Below, piece after piece: positions 41,052 through 51,024 of a stretch of DNA of 64,000 nucleotides. The notes under the pieces are model-generated. The model searched no databases. It saw only the letters and a program-made list of their open reading frames with translations, and was not told where the DNA came from. Both the position numbers and the translations under genes were made by a program. This DNA is from Bacteroidales bacterium (GTDB lineage Bacteria; Bacteroidota; Bacteroidia; Bacteroidales; VadinHA17): contig JAOZPG010000001.1 in assembly GCA_029932855.1 (NCBI GenBank), positions 147,404 through 211,403 of the forward strand. The letters are read 5' to 3'. Each line of letters starts with the position of its first letter. Position 1 is the first letter of the stretch.

Positions 41052-41082
41052 TTTGAAAATTTAAAAGAATAGAGTACTTTTG
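41052..41082 (+). promoter_or_regulatory. Promoter of the methionine operon (TTTG-N19-TACTTTTG)
   Basis: TTTG at 41052-41055, 19 nt, then TACTTTTG at 41075-41082: an exact Bacteroidota housekeeping promoter with ideal spacing. The expected start near 41088 lies about 30 nt before the riboswitch, so the aptamer is transcribed first. Confidence 0.78.
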
Positions 41083-41118: not shown

Positions 41119-41236
41119 GTTTGATTTATTAAGAAGAGGGGAGAGATTAGGCTCTGTGAACCTCTAGCAACCATTTCGGAAAAAGCTGAAAAAGGTGCTA
41201 AAACCTAATCCCGGCAACGGGAGATAATAAATAAAC
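41119..41236 (+). promoter_or_regulatory. SAM-I (S-box) riboswitch
   Basis: P1 is formed by GTTTGATTTATTA and TAATAAATAAAC (one bulge). P2 starts AGAGG and closes with CCTCT before the conserved GCAACC. The P2 loop ATTAGG (41146-41151) is complementary to CCTAAT (41204-41209), the pseudoknot of S-box aptamers. P3 is ACCATTTC/GAAAAAGGT followed by GTGCTAAA, and P4 is CCCGGCAACGGG. SAM binding should lower expression of the genes after it. I see no terminator with a T run directly behind, so the expression platform is not resolved. Confidence 0.9.
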
Positions 41237-41245
41237 ACATTTATC

Positions 41246-41317
41246 ATGAAAACGCAAATTACAGTTCTCGGAATTTCTTCCTTAAAAATACTGCACATGC
41301 CTATGCGCATGTGCTAA
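41246..41317 (+). CDS. Putative 23-residue leader peptide ending HMPMRMC
   Basis: An ATG 10 nt after the riboswitch opens a frame of 23 codons beginning MKTQITVLG and ending HMPMRMC-stop. Three Met codons and one Cys codon lie within the last six. The Met codons lie inside a perfect 8-bp hairpin (GCACATGC/GCATGTGC). Its placement between a SAM riboswitch and aspartokinase suggests a translational attenuator that senses charged tRNA-Met. There is no Shine-Dalgarno sequence, which is common in this phylum. It could also be chance. Confidence 0.45.
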   Translation: MKTQITVLGISSLKILHMPMRMC

Positions 41318-41377
41318 ACTTCAGGCTGAAAGCTTTGAAGTTGATATAGTAAGAAGGCAGTAAATTTCTGTTCTTAC
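41293..41377 (+). other. Three consecutive RNA hairpins in the methionine leader
   Basis: Hairpin 1: 41293-41300 with 41307-41314, 8 bp, overlapping the Met codons of the putative leader peptide. Hairpin 2: 41317-41322 with 41337-41342, plus inner GGCT/AGCT and a GAA loop. Hairpin 3: 41349-41355 with 41371-41377, plus inner CAG/CTG. None is followed by a proper T run, so they may act on ribosome loading or on a distal pause rather than as simple terminators. Confidence 0.55.
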
Positions 41378-41413
41378 CGAGGAATAATATACTTTTTAAA
41401 ACGAAATATAAAG

Positions 41414-44139
<2,726 letters not shown>

Positions 44140-44143
44140 TATT

Positions 44144-44151
44144 AAAGGAGG
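44144..44151 (+). promoter_or_regulatory. Strong ribosome binding site of metX (AAAGGAGG)
   Basis: A near-perfect Shine-Dalgarno 5 nt before the ATG at 44156, unusual in this window. It fixes the metX start after the metY stop and rejects the longer frame that begins 42 nt earlier inside metY. Confidence 0.8.
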
Positions 44152-44155
44152 ATTA

Positions 44156-45175
44156 ATGTCGTACGGTATATATAAATATGATAAGGAATTAAGGCTTGAG
44201 AGCGGAGAAGAACTGACGGGCCTGGAGATAGCATACCATAGTTATGGAAAGCTTAACCGGGCAAAAGACAATGTGGTATGGATATGTCATGCCTTTACTG
44301 CCAACTCAGATGCCCGTGACTGGTGGCCGGGCATGATAGGCGAATCATTACTGTTTGATCCGGGAGACAAGTTTATTGTATGTGCCAATATTCTTGGTTC
44401 CTGTTACGGAACAACAGGACCCTTATCAATTAATAAAAAGACCGGAAAGCCTTATTATCGTGATTTCCCCGATATCAGTATAAGAGACCTTGTGGAAGCA
44501 CATGAGTTATTAAGAGTTCATCTGGGGATTACGAGGATACATACCCTTACAGGAGGTTCAATAGGGGGGCAACAGGCACTGGAATATGCAATAATGTACC
44601 CCGGGCTGATAGAAAATCTAATATTTATTGCATCAAATGCATCATATGCACCATGGGGAATAGCCTTTAGTGAATCTCAGCGCCTGGCCATTGAAGCAGA
44701 TGCTTCTTTCTTTGAGGACAGGCCGGACGGGGGACTGAAAGGGATGAAGGCGGCAAGGTCGGTTGCGCTGTTAAGCTACAGGAACGACAGGATATATAAT
44801 AAGACACAGGCTGAGGAAAGCGATGAAAAAACAGATAATTTCAAAGCTTCTTCATACCAGAATTACCAGGGTGAAAAACTGGTAAAACGATTTAATGCCT
44901 ATTCTTATTATTGTTTACTCGAACTGGCTGATACACATAATGTTGGAAGAGGGAGGGGTGGAAAGAAGAATGCTCTTAAAAGGATAAAAGCAAAGACCCT
45001 TTCCATAGGCATTTCTTCAGACCTCCTGTTCCCGGTTTATGAGCAGAAATTTGTTGCTGATAATATTGAGGGAGCAAGCTATACAGAGATAGAATCTCTC
45101 TATGGTCATGATGGGTTTCTTGTTGAGACAGAGATAATATCAACTATTATAAGAAATTTTTATAATAATAAATAG
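44156..45175 (+). CDS. metX: Homoserine O-acetyltransferase
   Basis: An alpha/beta-hydrolase-fold enzyme of about 339 residues that activates homoserine with acetyl-CoA. Nucleophile elbow GGSIGGQQALE (Ser135), C-terminal Asp in SISSDLLFPV-like context and His in GHDGFLVE form the triad. ICHAFTANSDA and GSCYGTTGP are further family blocks; MetX proteins of this fold use acetyl- or succinyl-CoA, but the MetY neighbour supports acetyl. It sits in the middle of the SAM-riboswitch operon, with the next gene within about 30 nt. Confidence 0.93.
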   Translation: MSYGIYKYDKELRLESGEELTGLEIAYHSYGKLNRAKDNVVWICHAFTANSDARDWWPGMIGESLLFDPGDKFIVCANILGSCYGTTGPLSINKKTGKPYYRDFPDISIRDLVEAHELLRVHLGITRIHTLTGGSIGGQQALEYAIMYPGLIENLIFIASNASYAPWGIAFSESQRLAIEADASFFEDRPDGGLKGMKAARSVALLSYRNDRIYNKTQAEESDEKTDNFKASSYQNYQGEKLVKRFNAYSYYCLLELADTHNVGRGRGGKKNALKRIKAKTLSIGISSDLLFPVYEQKFVADNIEGASYTEIESLYGHDGFLVETEIISTIIRNFYNNK

Positions 45176-45206
45176 TGAAAGCAAAATGAGCCGGAAGGGA
45201 CATAAA

Positions 45207-46385
45207 ATGAAAATAGCTGTTTATGGCTATGGGACGGTTGCCAGGGGATTTATTGATATCCTGAAATCTTATTCCGGGGGGAACTTTGAGCTGCTTAAGA
45301 TAGTGGTGAAGGACAGGGATAAAAAAAGAGATATTAAGCCTCCCTTGCTGTGTTTTGAAAAAGATGACATTCTCAGGGATAAAGACATAAACCTGGTTAT
45401 TGAACTTATAGATGATGCAGATGATGCTTATGATATTGTTGTATCTGCTATGAGGGCAGGCAAGAATGTAATAAGTGCCAATAAAAAAATGATAGCCGGG
45501 AAGCAGGAAGAGCTTATTAAGATTTCTGAAAATAATAATGTTTCATTTTTATATGATGCTTCTGTGGGTGGTGGTATAGCTATAATAAGGAATCTTGAAG
45601 ATAGTTATAGCGACGAAAACATAAAACAGCTGGGCGGTATCTTAAATGCTTCATCAAATTATATCCTTTCACAGATGCATAATACAGGCGTGGAGTATTC
45701 TGAAGCGCTAAAAGTAGCTACCGAAAAAGGATTTGCCGAATCCAACCCGGCACTCGATGTTGAAGGTATTGATTCAAAATATAAGCTGGTAATTTTAGTC
45801 CTGCATGCATTTGGACTGCCGGTTGACCCTGATGATATATTTACCTGGGGGATTAGTAATATTATAAAGCAGGATATCCGGTTTGCAAAGAAAAAGGGGA
45901 GTAAAATAAAACTTATAGCCAGTGCAGAGATCAATCAGTCCGGGAAACTGGTTTTATCGGTAATGCCCCACTTTATCACACTATCCAGCCTGCTGTATAG
46001 TGTGGAAGATGAGTCTAACGGGATAATTGGCAGGTCGGTTTTCCTTGGAGAACAATTTTTTTATGGCAAAGGTGCCGGAGGCTATCCAACGGGGGCCTCA
46101 GTTTTTACCGACCTGGATGCCATATCTAACGGACATGTTTACAAATATAAAAAATACAGGAAAGGAAATTTCCCGGACTATACAAAAGACCATCTGTTGG
46201 AGGTTTACCTCAGGTCTCCTGCCGGTTCAAAGAAAGTAATGATTAAATTTATATCAGTTTCAGAATCATGGTCTGATAATGAATATGATTATATAATAGC
46301 TGTGACAAATCTTAAAGATCTTTATAATAAGCGGGAAGAGCTGAAAGAAAAAGAATATTTCCTGGCGGTAACATCACAAGTTTAA
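45207..46385 (+). CDS. hom: Homoserine dehydrogenase
   Basis: Reduces aspartate semialdehyde to homoserine. A protein of about 392 residues: IAVYGYGTVARGF (NAD(P) motif), VISANKKMIAGK, YDASVGGGIAIIRNL, GILNASSNYILSQM, FAESNPALDVEGIDSKYKLVIL (catalytic Lys). The final 70 residues do not show a clear ACT pattern and may be a diverged regulatory tail. An ATG lies at 45186, but I prefer 45207: GGAAGGGA precedes it and the chain begins MKIAVYG like family members. The stop overlaps the metH start by 1 nt (TAATG), which suggests translational coupling. Confidence 0.9.
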   Translation: MKIAVYGYGTVARGFIDILKSYSGGNFELLKIVVKDRDKKRDIKPPLLCFEKDDILRDKDINLVIELIDDADDAYDIVVSAMRAGKNVISANKKMIAGKQEELIKISENNNVSFLYDASVGGGIAIIRNLEDSYSDENIKQLGGILNASSNYILSQMHNTGVEYSEALKVATEKGFAESNPALDVEGIDSKYKLVILVLHAFGLPVDPDDIFTWGISNIIKQDIRFAKKKGSKIKLIASAEINQSGKLVLSVMPHFITLSSLLYSVEDESNGIIGRSVFLGEQFFYGKGAGGYPTGASVFTDLDAISNGHVYKYKKYRKGNFPDYTKDHLLEVYLRSPAGSKKVMIKFISVSESWSDNEYDYIIAVTNLKDLYNKREELKEKEYFLAVTSQV

Positions 46386-49300
46386 TGAAGAAGGACATAA
46401 ATAAGGAAATAAGAGAACGTGTATTGGTGCTGGACGGAGCCATGGGCACCTTAATACAGGCATACGGTCTTACAGAGGAAGATTTCAGGGGTGATGAGTT
46501 CAGGGATCATAGCTACGAGCTAAAGGGAAACAACGACCTGCTTTCGATAAGCAAGCCTGAACTAATAAGAAGTATTCACGACAGTTACCTTGAGGCCGGG
46601 GCAGATATAATTGAGACAAACAGCTTTAACTCTAACAGGATATCTTTAAAAGATTACCACCTGGAACATATAGCATATCGCCTGAACAAAGCTGCTGCGA
46701 AAATAGCCAGGCAGAGTGTGGATGATTATATGAAGAATAACCCCGCTGAGGCAAAATATGTTGCCGGCTCAATGGGCCCCACAAGTAAAACGGCATCTAT
46801 CTCCCCAAGGGTGGAGGAACCGGGATACCGGGAAGTGGATTTTAATGACCTGAAAGAAGCATATGGGGAACAGGCTGCTGGACTGATTGACGGGGGGGTG
46901 GATATTCTGTTACTGGAAACGGTTTTTGACACTCTTAATGCCAAGGCAGGATTATATGCCATTCGAGAGGAGATGGATAAAAGGAATCTTGATTTGCCGG
47001 TTATGATATCAGGAACCCTCAGCGACTCGAGTGGAAGAACCCTTTCGGGACAAACCCTTGAGGCATTCCTGAACTCCGTGTCAACACTCAATGTGTTCAG
47101 CGTGGGACTGAATTGCTCGATGGGGGCAAAGGAGCTGAAGCCTTATGTTAAACAGATATCCCGGCTGTCCGGGCTTCCGGTAAGTGTTCATCCCAATGCA
47201 GGACTGCCAAACCAGTTTGGGGAATATGATGAAAGTCCTGAGGATATGAGTGTTTATATTAAGGATTTTCTCGATAACAGGCAGGTAAATATTATTGGAG
47301 GATGTTGCGGAACCACGCCGGAGCATATCAAAAAATTTTCAGTGCTTGCAAGAAAGGCAAAGCCGAGGGAAGTTAAAAAAGTAAATAAAGATCTCAGGTT
47401 AAGCGGACTGGAATCCCTGGTTCATTTCCCGGGAAGTAATTTTATTAATATAGGTGAGAGGACAAATGTTGCCGGTTCGAGGAAATTTGCAAGGTTGATA
47501 CGGGAGAAAGACTATGAACAAGCCATGCATATTGCCAGGCAACAGGTAGAAAACGGAGCCCAGATTATTGATGTAAACCTTGATGATCCCATGCTTGATG
47601 CCAAGGAAGAAATGGTGAAGTTCCTTTCGATGATTGCTTCCGATCCGGAGGTTGCCAGGGTGCCGGTAATGATAGACTCTTCAAAATGGGAAGTTCTTGA
47701 AGCTGGTCTGCAGTGTCTGCAGGGGAAGGGAATAGTTAATTCCATATCATTAAAAGAGGGGGAGGAAGAGTTTATAAAAAGGGCCAAAATAATAATGAAC
47801 TATGGAGCGGCGGCAGTGATAATGGCATTTGATGAACAGGGGCAGGCAACAGATATTAAGAGAAGGATAGAAATAACATCCAGGGCCTACCGTCTTCTGA
47901 CTGAGGCAGGCTTTCCACCTGAGGATATCATTTTCGATCCCAATGTGCTGACCGTGGCCACAGGAATGGAGGAACATGATAATTATGCTCTTGGTTTTAT
48001 AGAAGCAACACGATGGATAAAGAAAAATCTTAAATATGTCAGGGTGAGTGGGGGCATAAGTAATCTTTCTTTTTCTTACAGGGGGAATAATACTGTCAGG
48101 GAGGCTATGCATGCAGTGTTTCTTTATCATTCTATAAAGGCCGGGCTGGATATGGCTATAGTAAATGCAGGTAACCTGCCGGTTTATGATGATATCCCCA
48201 AACCACTACTTACTATGGTGGAGGATGTTGTATTAAATCGCAGGTCCGATGCTACTGAAAGGCTTACCGAATATGCACAGGGCTTAAGTCAGCAGGATAC
48301 AAATAAAGAGAAGAAACAGGAAGAGTGGAGGGCTTTTCCTCTTGAAAAAAGAATAGAATATTCACTGCTAAAGGGTAATCACGACTATATTGAGGAAGAC
48401 ATGAAGGAGGCAGTTGAGAAATATAGTTCTTCGCTCGAGATAATTGAAAAACCCCTGATGCAGGGAATGGATATCGTAGGGGATTATTTTGGTGAGGGAA
48501 AGATGTTCCTTCCCCAGGTAATACGAAGTGCAAGGGTGATGAAAAAAGCGGTTACTTTTTTGAGTCCCTATATTGAGAAAGAAAAATCTTCTGCCGGCCT
48601 GCCGTCTTCGGCAGGAAAAGTCTTACTGGCAACTGTGAAGGGAGATGTTCATGATATTGGAAAGAATATTGTTGCACTTGTACTGGCCTGTAATAATTAT
48701 GAGATCATTGATCTGGGAGTTATGGTTTCGGCCGAAGAGATACTTAAGGAGGCAGCAGCACAAGATGTTGATATCATAGGTTTAAGCGGACTTATTACGC
48801 CTTCGCTTGAAGAAATGATAAATATTGCCCGTGAGATGAATAAAAAAGGCTTTAATATACCACTGCTGGTTGGAGGAGCTACTACATCGGTATTACATAC
48901 GGCAGTAAAGATATCTAAGGAGTATAACAGGGGAGTAGTGCATGTTAAAGATGCTTCAAAAAGTGTACAGGCAATATCAAAGCTGCTTTCGCATAAACAA
49001 AAAAAGGGATTCCTGGCAGAAACAGAGAAAAATTATTCTCAGTTACGGAAAAGCAATAAGACAGTTAAAAGAAAAATAATAAGTATTGAACAGGCACGAA
49101 GAAACAGTTTTAAGACCGACTGGGATAAATATAAACCGGTAAGACCGGCACAAACAGGAATACAAGAAATAATAGTCAGGGACCTGGAAGAAATAAGCAG
49201 ATATATTGACTGGACTTTTTTCTTTCATGTATGGGGATTAAAAGGTCATTTTCCGGAAATACTTGAGCATCCGCAGAGGGGAAAAACAGCAAAAAAGATT

Positions 49301-50056
49301 TTTGCAGAAGGGAAAGAACTGCTTAAGAAAATCATAAAGAAAAAGATCATAAGAGTAGAAGCGGTAACGGGTATTTTCCCGGCAAACTCCGAGGGGGATG
49401 ATATTGTTCTTTATACCGGGGAGGACAGAAAAAATGAATTTGCAAGGTTGCCCCAGTTAAGGCAGCAGACCGAAAGAGAAGAGGGGAAAGCAAATATTTG
49501 CCTGTCAGACTATATTGCCCCTGCCGGTTCGGGTATAGCAGATTATCATGCATTATTTGCTATAACTGCGGGGCTGGGAATGGAAGAATTTATGAAGAAA
49601 GTGCTTCCTGACGATGATGGATATTGCGAGATAATGCTTAAAGCTTTATGCGACCGTCTTGCTGAGGCTGCTGCCGAATGGTTGCATCTGAAGATCAGGA
49701 AAGAACTGTGGGGATTCGCTGTGGATGAGAAGCTTGATCTAGTTGAATTACTGAGAGCAGATTACCAGGGTATCAGGCCAGCATTTGGTTATCCTGCATG
49801 TCCCGATCATTCTGAGAAGAGAAGGGTATTCGATATTATGGATGTTGAGAAGCGTATAGGGATGAGTTTAACGGAAAGCTATTCGATGTACCCGGTAGCT
49901 TCAGTAAGTGCTCATGTTTTTGCTCATCCTTATTCGGCATATTTCGATGTGGGAAGGATTGAGAAAGACCAGATGACAGATTATGCCGCAAGGAAGAAGA
50001 TGACAATTACGGATATTGAAAAGATACTTAAGCCAAATTTAAATTATAATAGCTGA
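46385..50056 (+). CDS. metH: Cobalamin-dependent methionine synthase, full length
   Basis: A 1223-residue enzyme that transfers the methyl group of 5-methyltetrahydrofolate to homocysteine through cobalamin. Modules in order: homocysteine domain (about 1-325; VLDGAMGTLIQ, zinc Cys in GLNCSMG near 242 and GGCCGTTPEH near 305), pterin domain (about 350-610; INIGERTNVAGSRKF), cap (about 640-735), cobalamin domain (DVHDIGKN, ligand His near 757) and reactivation domain (about 890-1223; RPAFGYPACPDH). All modules are complete. It follows hom by a 1-nt overlap and precedes metF by 8 nt, so methyl-folate supply and use are co-expressed under SAM control. Confidence 0.97.
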   Translation: MKKDINKEIRERVLVLDGAMGTLIQAYGLTEEDFRGDEFRDHSYELKGNNDLLSISKPELIRSIHDSYLEAGADIIETNSFNSNRISLKDYHLEHIAYRLNKAAAKIARQSVDDYMKNNPAEAKYVAGSMGPTSKTASISPRVEEPGYREVDFNDLKEAYGEQAAGLIDGGVDILLLETVFDTLNAKAGLYAIREEMDKRNLDLPVMISGTLSDSSGRTLSGQTLEAFLNSVSTLNVFSVGLNCSMGAKELKPYVKQISRLSGLPVSVHPNAGLPNQFGEYDESPEDMSVYIKDFLDNRQVNIIGGCCGTTPEHIKKFSVLARKAKPREVKKVNKDLRLSGLESLVHFPGSNFINIGERTNVAGSRKFARLIREKDYEQAMHIARQQVENGAQIIDVNLDDPMLDAKEEMVKFLSMIASDPEVARVPVMIDSSKWEVLEAGLQCLQGKGIVNSISLKEGEEEFIKRAKIIMNYGAAAVIMAFDEQGQATDIKRRIEITSRAYRLLTEAGFPPEDIIFDPNVLTVATGMEEHDNYALGFIEATRWIKKNLKYVRVSGGISNLSFSYRGNNTVREAMHAVFLYHSIKAGLDMAIVNAGNLPVYDDIPKPLLTMVEDVVLNRRSDATERLTEYAQGLSQQDTNKEKKQEEWRAFPLEKRIEYSLLKGNHDYIEEDMKEAVEKYSSSLEIIEKPLMQGMDIVGDYFGEGKMFLPQVIRSARVMKKAVTFLSPYIEKEKSSAGLPSSAGKVLLATVKGDVHDIGKNIVALVLACNNYEIIDLGVMVSAEEILKEAAAQDVDIIGLSGLITPSLEEMINIAREMNKKGFNIPLLVGGATTSVLHTAVKISKEYNRGVVHVKDASKSVQAISKLLSHKQKKGFLAETEKNYSQLRKSNKTVKRKIISIEQARRNSFKTDWDKYKPVRPAQTGIQEIIVRDLEEISRYIDWTFFFHVWGLKGHFPEILEHPQRGKTAKKIFAEGKELLKKIIKKKIIRVEAVTGIFPANSEGDDIVLYTGEDRKNEFARLPQLRQQTEREEGKANICLSDYIAPAGSGIADYHALFAITAGLGMEEFMKKVLPDDDGYCEIMLKALCDRLAEAAAEWLHLKIRKELWGFAVDEKLDLVELLRADYQGIRPAFGYPACPDHSEKRRVFDIMDVEKRIGMSLTESYSMYPVASVSAHVFAHPYSAYFDVGRIEKDQMTDYAARKKMTITDIEKILKPNLNYNS

Positions 50057-50064
50057 AAAAAATT

Positions 50065-51024
50065 ATGGGTGTTAAAATAATAGATCTTTTAAAAGATACA
50101 GATAAGACATTATTTTCATTTGAACTTCTTCCTCCGCTGAAAGGTCAGGATATTGAGTCAATTTATGAAACCATAGATCCCCTGATGGAGTTCAAGCCTC
50201 CTTATATTAATGTTACATACCATCAGGAAGAGCTTGTTTACAGGAAGGTAAAAGAAAACCTTCTTGAGAGAAAGAGAATATGGAAACGTCCGGGGACAGT
50301 TGCCCTGTCAGCAGCTATTAAATATAAATATAAGGTGGTGGTTGTGCCCCATATAATATGTGGTGGTTTTACCAGGGAGGAAACAGAAAATGCCCTTATT
50401 GATCTTAACTTCCTGGGAATGAATAATGTGCTTGCTGTAAGGGGGGATGCACCGGAGGATACAAAAATCTTTGTTCCCGAAGAGGGGGGACATAAACATG
50501 CTGTAGATATTGTTAAACAGATCATGGACCTGAATAAGGGGATATATCTTGATGAAGAGCTAATACACAAAAGGCCTACTGACTTTTCTGTGGGGGTTGC
50601 CGGCTATCCTGAGAAACATTCCGAATCGCCAAATATGGATTCTGACATACATTTCTTAAAAAAGAAGGTTGATGCGGGTGCAGACTATATTGTTACCCAG
50701 ATGTTTTTCGATAACGTGAAATATTTCAGTTTTGTTGATAAATGCAGGAAAGCGGGAATAAAAGTGCCGATTATTCCCGGGCTTAAGCCCATTTCTGCAT
50801 ATAATCATTTGCAATATTTATCAAAAACCTTTAGTATTGATATACCCGATCCCCTGGTTAGAGAGGTTATTAAATGCAAGGATAATAATCAGGTGAGGGA
50901 AGTTGGGGTGGAATGGGCTGTTCAGCAATCCAGGGAACTAATTAAGGCAGGCGTTCCGGTATTACATTTTTATTCCATGGGAAAGCCTGATAATATTAAG
51001 AAAATTGCTAAACAAATTTTTTAA
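50065..51024 (+). CDS. metF: Methylenetetrahydrofolate reductase
   Basis: A flavoprotein of 319 residues that reduces 5,10-methylene- to 5-methyltetrahydrofolate, the methyl donor for MetH. FSFELLPPLKGQD (active Glu), YINVTYHQEE, VPHIICGGFTREET, NVLAVRGDAP, VGVAGYPEKH and DYIVTQMFFD are family blocks. The length is normal for the bacterial single-domain form. It is the last clear methionine gene of the operon; rnr starts 15 nt after its stop. Confidence 0.95.
   Translation: MGVKIIDLLKDTDKTLFSFELLPPLKGQDIESIYETIDPLMEFKPPYINVTYHQEELVYRKVKENLLERKRIWKRPGTVALSAAIKYKYKVVVVPHIICGGFTREETENALIDLNFLGMNNVLAVRGDAPEDTKIFVPEEGGHKHAVDIVKQIMDLNKGIYLDEELIHKRPTDFSVGVAGYPEKHSESPNMDSDIHFLKKKVDAGADYIVTQMFFDNVKYFSFVDKCRKAGIKVPIIPGLKPISAYNHLQYLSKTFSIDIPDPLVREVIKCKDNNQVREVGVEWAVQQSRELIKAGVPVLHFYSMGKPDNIKKIAKQIF

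Follow-up and report, generated by a model that had tools for sequence, protein, structure and literature searches.

A candidate methionine-codon leader peptide in series with a SAM-I riboswitch upstream of a methionine operon in Bacteroidales

Introduction

Attenuation by leader peptides has been described for a number of amino acids. The attenuator specificities given in one paper are His, Leu, Thr, Trp, Ile/Val and Phe, with no Met type (PMC3766115), and leader peptides have been suspected in the Bacteroidota in general (PMC9723704, PMC7366714). In the open-licence literature searched, we found no description of a Met-specific leader, nor of a SAM riboswitch combined with a codon-sensing leader. 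The locus examined here, part of a 64,000-nucleotide stretch of DNA from a Bacteroidales bacterium (hereafter the window), raises the question of whether both kinds of sensor can act in series on one operon. An original prediction made from the letters of the window had likened this layout to trp/his-type attenuation placed in series with a SAM riboswitch and had known of no described case in the Bacteroidota, the latter in agreement with the literature searched.

Results

A Met-rich frame lies between a SAM-I aptamer and a methionine operon

The aptamer in the window (Table 1) matched positions 1–108 of the 108 positions of the RF00162 covariance model, for which the gathering score is 44.4. 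By this score the element belongs to the SAM-I class and is predicted to bind SAM; it is also the sole SAM riboswitch in the genome. An Rfam scan of the leader region at a relaxed threshold yielded, besides this aptamer, chance-level matches far below the gathering score. Upstream of the aptamer lies a TAnnTTTG box, which we take to be the Bacteroidota-type –7 element and which recurs 5′ of the aptamer in most related loci, mostly at 36–52 nt. The downstream operon (41414–51024), judged from its domain and family matches, encodes most of the pathway that leads from aspartate to methionine.

The frame in between has 23 codons and ends HMPMRMC, as originally predicted, and its start is located 12 nt 3′ of the Rfam aptamer end rather than the 10 nt first given. 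Its last six codons indeed comprise three Met and one Cys codon. Searching the peptide against NCBIfam returned no family at an E-value of 0.01 or better, a search in which such short queries have little power. Folding recovered both the perfect 8-bp hairpin around the Met codons and the two further hairpins predicted ahead of aspartokinase.

Table 1. Position of the features in the window, and loci of leaders lacking a riboswitch
Feature	Position or locus	Strand	Basis or remark
TAnnTTTG promoter box TACTTTTG	41075..41082	+	sequence; recurrence in related loci
SAM-I riboswitch aptamer	41123..41233	+	RF00162, 72 bits, complete model match
Met leader ORF MKTQITVLGISSLKILHMPMRMC*	41246..41317	+	frame; position, frame and Met codons conserved in relatives
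Presumed sensing codons Met18, Met20, Met22	41297, 41303, 41309 (41297..41311)	+	codon table; Met enrichment at frame end, 31 families
Hairpin 1, perfect 8 bp, encloses Met codons	41293..41314	+	folding
Hairpin 2, 5′ arm begins at stop codon	41317..41342	+	folding; pair conservation in relatives
Hairpin 3, no U tract 3′ of it	41349..41377	+	folding
Aspartokinase	41414..42781	+	AA_kinase and ACT domains; NCBIfam aspartate kinase
metY-type Cys/Met metabolism PLP enzyme	42838..44139	+	PF01053, E 1.9e-130
metX-like homoserine O-acyltransferase	44156..45175	+	best NCBIfam match TIGR01392, below its cut-off
Homoserine dehydrogenase	45186..46385	+	PF00742 and PF03447
metH, B12-dependent methionine synthase	46385..50056	+	all methionine synthase domains
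metF, methylenetetrahydrofolate reductase	50065..51024	+	TIGR00676 above its cut-off
Riboswitch-free leader	L065		before homoserine dehydrogenase
Riboswitch-free leaders	L070, L088, L096, L111		before metY
Riboswitch-free leaders	L101, L110, L123		before metH

The frame and its terminal Met codons are conserved across families

For the cleanest test of conservation, one frame was taken from each of 31 families of the order, leaving out the window's own family, and frames were picked by a start 8–18 nt behind the aptamer and by length, not by content. Met made up 16.5% of the last ten codons of these frames versus 1.0% of their remaining codons, and at least two Met codons were present among the last twelve in 20 of the 31. 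In hand-picked lineages, at least three Met codons were present in the last ten codons of 11 out of 23 frames, as compared to 0.6% of 1706 short control frames from the same loci. Altogether, a Met leader was found in 58 of 103 SAM loci from 24 families by a criterion with a control rate of 5%, so that a small number of the 58 could be chance matches. The leader start lay 9–16 nt behind the aptamer in 56 of these 58 loci, and the leaders were 14–60 codons long. When loci were sampled by gene rather than by motif, each of the four aspartokinase orthologues with at least 60% identity was preceded by the leader (one being cut by a contig end), while an orthologue of 45% identity (L040) was not. 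Across loci, the genes 3′ of Met leaders were metY, aspartokinase, metH, HcyBio, metX or homoserine dehydrogenase, all of which serve methionine or homocysteine synthesis, with none from other pathways. In a sample of the phylum outside the order, SAM riboswitches often carried strong terminators and almost never a Met leader.

Among 35 distinct 22-codon leaders of one subgroup, 59 of 141 single-change codons were synonymous versus 17% expected (the p value is approximate, since the count was made along a minimum spanning tree). The conservation of the frame and of its Met-rich end, on which the original prediction had staked itself, was thus found in relatives, and frames that were shifted, that lacked Met codons or that were missing next to conserved hairpins were not seen as a rule. 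These data bear on the possibility that the hairpins are conserved as RNA elements, with the frame and its Met codons a by-product of the CAUGCC...GGCAUG stem. The stem sequence of hairpin 1 is indeed almost invariant in the window's family, and the energy of this hairpin equals the minimum over all synonymous codings of LHMPMRMC (shared by 1.4% of 576 codings), making it as stable as coding permits. However, synonymous changes are enriched along the frame, frames of very unequal length remain open and in register, and the Met codons are kept in families with other stem sequences, making this explanation highly improbable. We instead consider it very probable, from these comparisons of sequence, that the frame is a real coding unit with Met codons selected at its end, forming a module separate from the riboswitch.

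Within the window's family the frames ended in MPLMPMCMCR, MPFMPMCMR or VMPMGMR, among others, while endings in other families, such as SMDMRCMR, SSPMRMR, LRMGM and HCMRMRSC, had only the Met codons in common. In the MPMxM core the variable residue was Cys, Arg, Gly, Ser or Asp, mostly encoded by an NGC codon that closes hairpin 1. Cys as part of the signal is therefore not supported, and Cys or His sensing was rejected as the Cys and His codons vary among relatives. Since Met is also the residue most strongly enriched at frame ends, Met is likely the signal sensed. A peptide ending in M-P-[LF]-M-P-M-x-M, as in the window's family, might alternatively arrest ribosomes through its own sequence, with free Met or SAM as the trigger, in a TnaC-like manner and independent of uncharged tRNA. 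This would fit the Pro and Leu/Phe residues that flank Met in that family and are kept while their codons vary, but in an arrest peptide one would expect conservation beyond the Met codons shared by the other families, so that we regard nascent-chain arrest as unlikely. The AUG in the loop of hairpin 1 might suggest a T-box-like element, a reading that was rejected since in other families the loop does not retain this AUG.

A few loci carried related but different arrangements. In L271, a frame starting 10 nt after the aptamer and preceding metY ends SISSCCCFCCC, with Cys and without Met, and is perhaps a Cys-sensing version. In L151 (1480–1990), from another family of the class, the SAM riboswitch has a U-tract terminator of its own, and between this and metY lies a Cys/Met leader whose last residues are HMMCCCCCCMPFGA. 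The reverse strand of L179 (first 520 nt) carries a frame with the ending FRMCMPVNI, flanked by a SAM riboswitch and a gene whose product has a signal-peptide-like start and is possibly an outer membrane protein.

Leader and riboswitch also occur apart

Searching with CATGCCTATGNGCATG gave matches in 20 of 99 relatives, and zero matches with the reversed control. Eight leaders were without any riboswitch according to cmscan (Table 1), indicating that the Met leader is a separate module; one of them (L096) is close to a contig end. Most of these riboswitch-free leaders start shortly 3′ of a TAnnTTTG-like box, and translation of L101, L111 and L123 would probably start at GTG or TTG.

Several SAM riboswitch loci conversely had no Met leader, including two congeners of the window (L045 and L046) in which the riboswitch precedes metX or metH. 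One frame in L046 ends YCLCTCNKCEF and contains four Cys. In eight further loci (L011, L014, L017, L244, L253, L263, L274 and L275), metH starts 2–20 nt behind the aptamer, too close for a terminator to fit in between, an arrangement suggestive of direct control at the level of translation. Helix P1 beside the AUG could be the switch in such loci, and the leader AUG occupies the same place.

The riboswitch might also be the sole sensor, with the leader acting as a translated relay that retains ribosomes close to the start of the operon or keeps Rho from loading, without any sensing of Met. The fixed spacing between aptamer and leader start would suit such a relay, as would the riboswitch-linked uORFs with positive and negative effects described for M. 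tuberculosis (PMC11260477). This explanation nevertheless leaves both the Met enrichment at the frame end across families and the riboswitch-free leaders unaccounted for, and we give it little credence.

In the window (41225–41248), and likewise in L007, L020, L022, L030, L048 and L050, the 3′ strand of P1 is able to pair with bases that immediately precede or overlap the start codon of the leader (GAUAA/UUAUC, AUGAU/AUCAU). If real, this pairing would occlude the start codon when SAM is low, which is the opposite of the model that we prefer. Pairing of the aptamer 5′ half with leader codons 12–17, seen in the fold of the window, was discarded since it had no counterpart in the relatives inspected.

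Hairpins at the stop codon and the output of the leader

The region from 41236 to 41413 folded better than all of 200 dinucleotide shuffles (z –3.15). In folds of the window, masking a ribosome at Met18 or Met20 kept hairpin 2, whereas masking at Met22 shortened it and masking at the stop codon abolished it. Hairpin 2 also forms without any ribosome, so that hairpin 1 would need to mark that state as OFF. A mutually exclusive pair of folds was sought in the window and none was found: hairpins 1 and 2 do not overlap, and the OFF and ON folds are consequently not plainly exclusive.

Among relatives, the pairs of hairpin 2 survived sequence changes in 12 leaders, with one pair changing from A-U to U-A. 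Across 42 representatives, a 45-nt segment spanning the stop codon and the sequence behind it folded better than dinucleotide shuffles (mean z –1.15, p 5e-4), very strongly so in L242, L268 and L273, with many single leaders being unremarkable. The Met codons of the leaders are usually enclosed in a hairpin, and there is often another one directly at the stop codon. CCGG segments compete for each other in one metY subgroup, where they lie at the stop codon and farther downstream.

Classical attenuation needs a terminator. Three types of scan revealed no intrinsic terminator with a U tract on the + strand between leader and aspartokinase in the window, and strict terminators were present in 5 of 58 leader loci versus 9 of the 37 SAM loci that lack both a leader and an adjacent gene (p 0.04). 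Of the original prediction, the conserved Met-codon leader in series with the riboswitch is supported, but a standard terminator of trp/his-type attenuation is not. Minus-strand terminator-like matches at hairpin 1 were set aside, as they need an upstream AAAAATAC that was not seen in the listed relatives.

A classical trp/his-type transcription attenuator whose terminator was missed by the scans would find some backing in the terminator-like stems with U tracts of a few leader loci (e.g. L026 and L101). It would likewise find backing in locus L006 of the window's family, where a Trp-rich leader (MNYINRNNRWWGWWTWINIRDRSTLHC; + strand, ca. 1758–1920) is followed by a stem and U7 tract before trpE. 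This element looks like a classical trp attenuator, and its sequence indicates that the window's family can use such terminators. With the window devoid of a + strand terminator and with so few strict ones among leader loci, however, a missed terminator seems improbable, and Rho or translational control become the likelier outputs. The output of the leader is then likely either Rho-dependent termination or control of aspartokinase translation, about equally so.

Discussion

The reading that we prefer, and hold to be moderately probable, is that of two sensors in series: a SAM-I riboswitch followed by a translated ORF whose Met codons would sense charged elongator tRNA-Met via the position of the ribosome. 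In a first step, the riboswitch would gate translation of the leader, with SAM closing helix P1 next to the leader start codon. Judging from this anatomy, the chances that the leader is translated only at low SAM, by way of this closing of P1, appear evenly balanced. In a second step, the ribosome would read the Met codons, and its stalling or not would decide whether hairpins 1 and 2 form. When Met-tRNA is scarce, a stall at the late Met codons would leave hairpin 1 melted and hairpin 2 free, while with ample Met a ribosome at the stop codon would block hairpin 2; taken together, the layout of codons and hairpins makes these two states fairly probable. In a third step, the state of both hairpins would alter operon expression. 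The logic that would join the SAM and Met sensors is put forward as a hypothesis.

Translation of the leader itself can begin only with charged initiator tRNA-Met, and a shortage of Met could therefore disable the very leader that signals it. We conjecture that the combination with a SAM riboswitch may get round this problem. A riboswitch with a Met leader would moreover constitute a natural two-input design, reading both the end product and its activated derivative. The eight riboswitch-free leaders and the many leader-free riboswitches make each sensor testable alone. The SAM riboswitches of this order may act on a short ORF instead of a gene, in which case an aptamer-only annotation would miss half of the control. 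More tentatively, such a dual sensor might extend across the order, with the SAM riboswitch controlling a Met-sensing leader and met operons reading SAM and tRNA-Met in series; this would be the first described Met-specific ribosome-mediated attenuator, and one without an intrinsic terminator.

Several known systems share parts of this layout. In Sinorhizobium, the met gene metA is likewise linked to a SAM riboswitch, of the SAM-II type, and shows layered control with an additional AUG upstream (PMC9373788), but the aptamer is of another class and the abstract of that report describes no Met-codon leader peptide. In the B12 riboswitch-uORFs of M. tuberculosis (metE and ppe2; PMC11260477), a riboswitch and translation of a short ORF also act together, although the ligand differs, the metE uORF lies within the aptamer and, as far as the accessible text goes, codon-specific sensing of an amino acid is not described. 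The Cys leaders of Actinobacteria (PMC1262725) similarly have end-product codons in runs close to the stop and lack an obvious terminator, yet they concern Cys rather than Met, belong to another phylum and, in the part of the source available, have no riboswitch reported. The trp, his, thr, leu, ilv and phe attenuators share the short ORF, the end-product codons near the stop, the hairpins and the biosynthetic operon on the 3′ side, whereas the present leader features Met, has no intrinsic terminator in the window and stands in series with a riboswitch. Finally, SAM-I (S-box) riboswitches (RF00162) feature the same full aptamer before methionine genes, but the first element behind the aptamer is here a Met leader ORF, in place of a terminator or of the gene.
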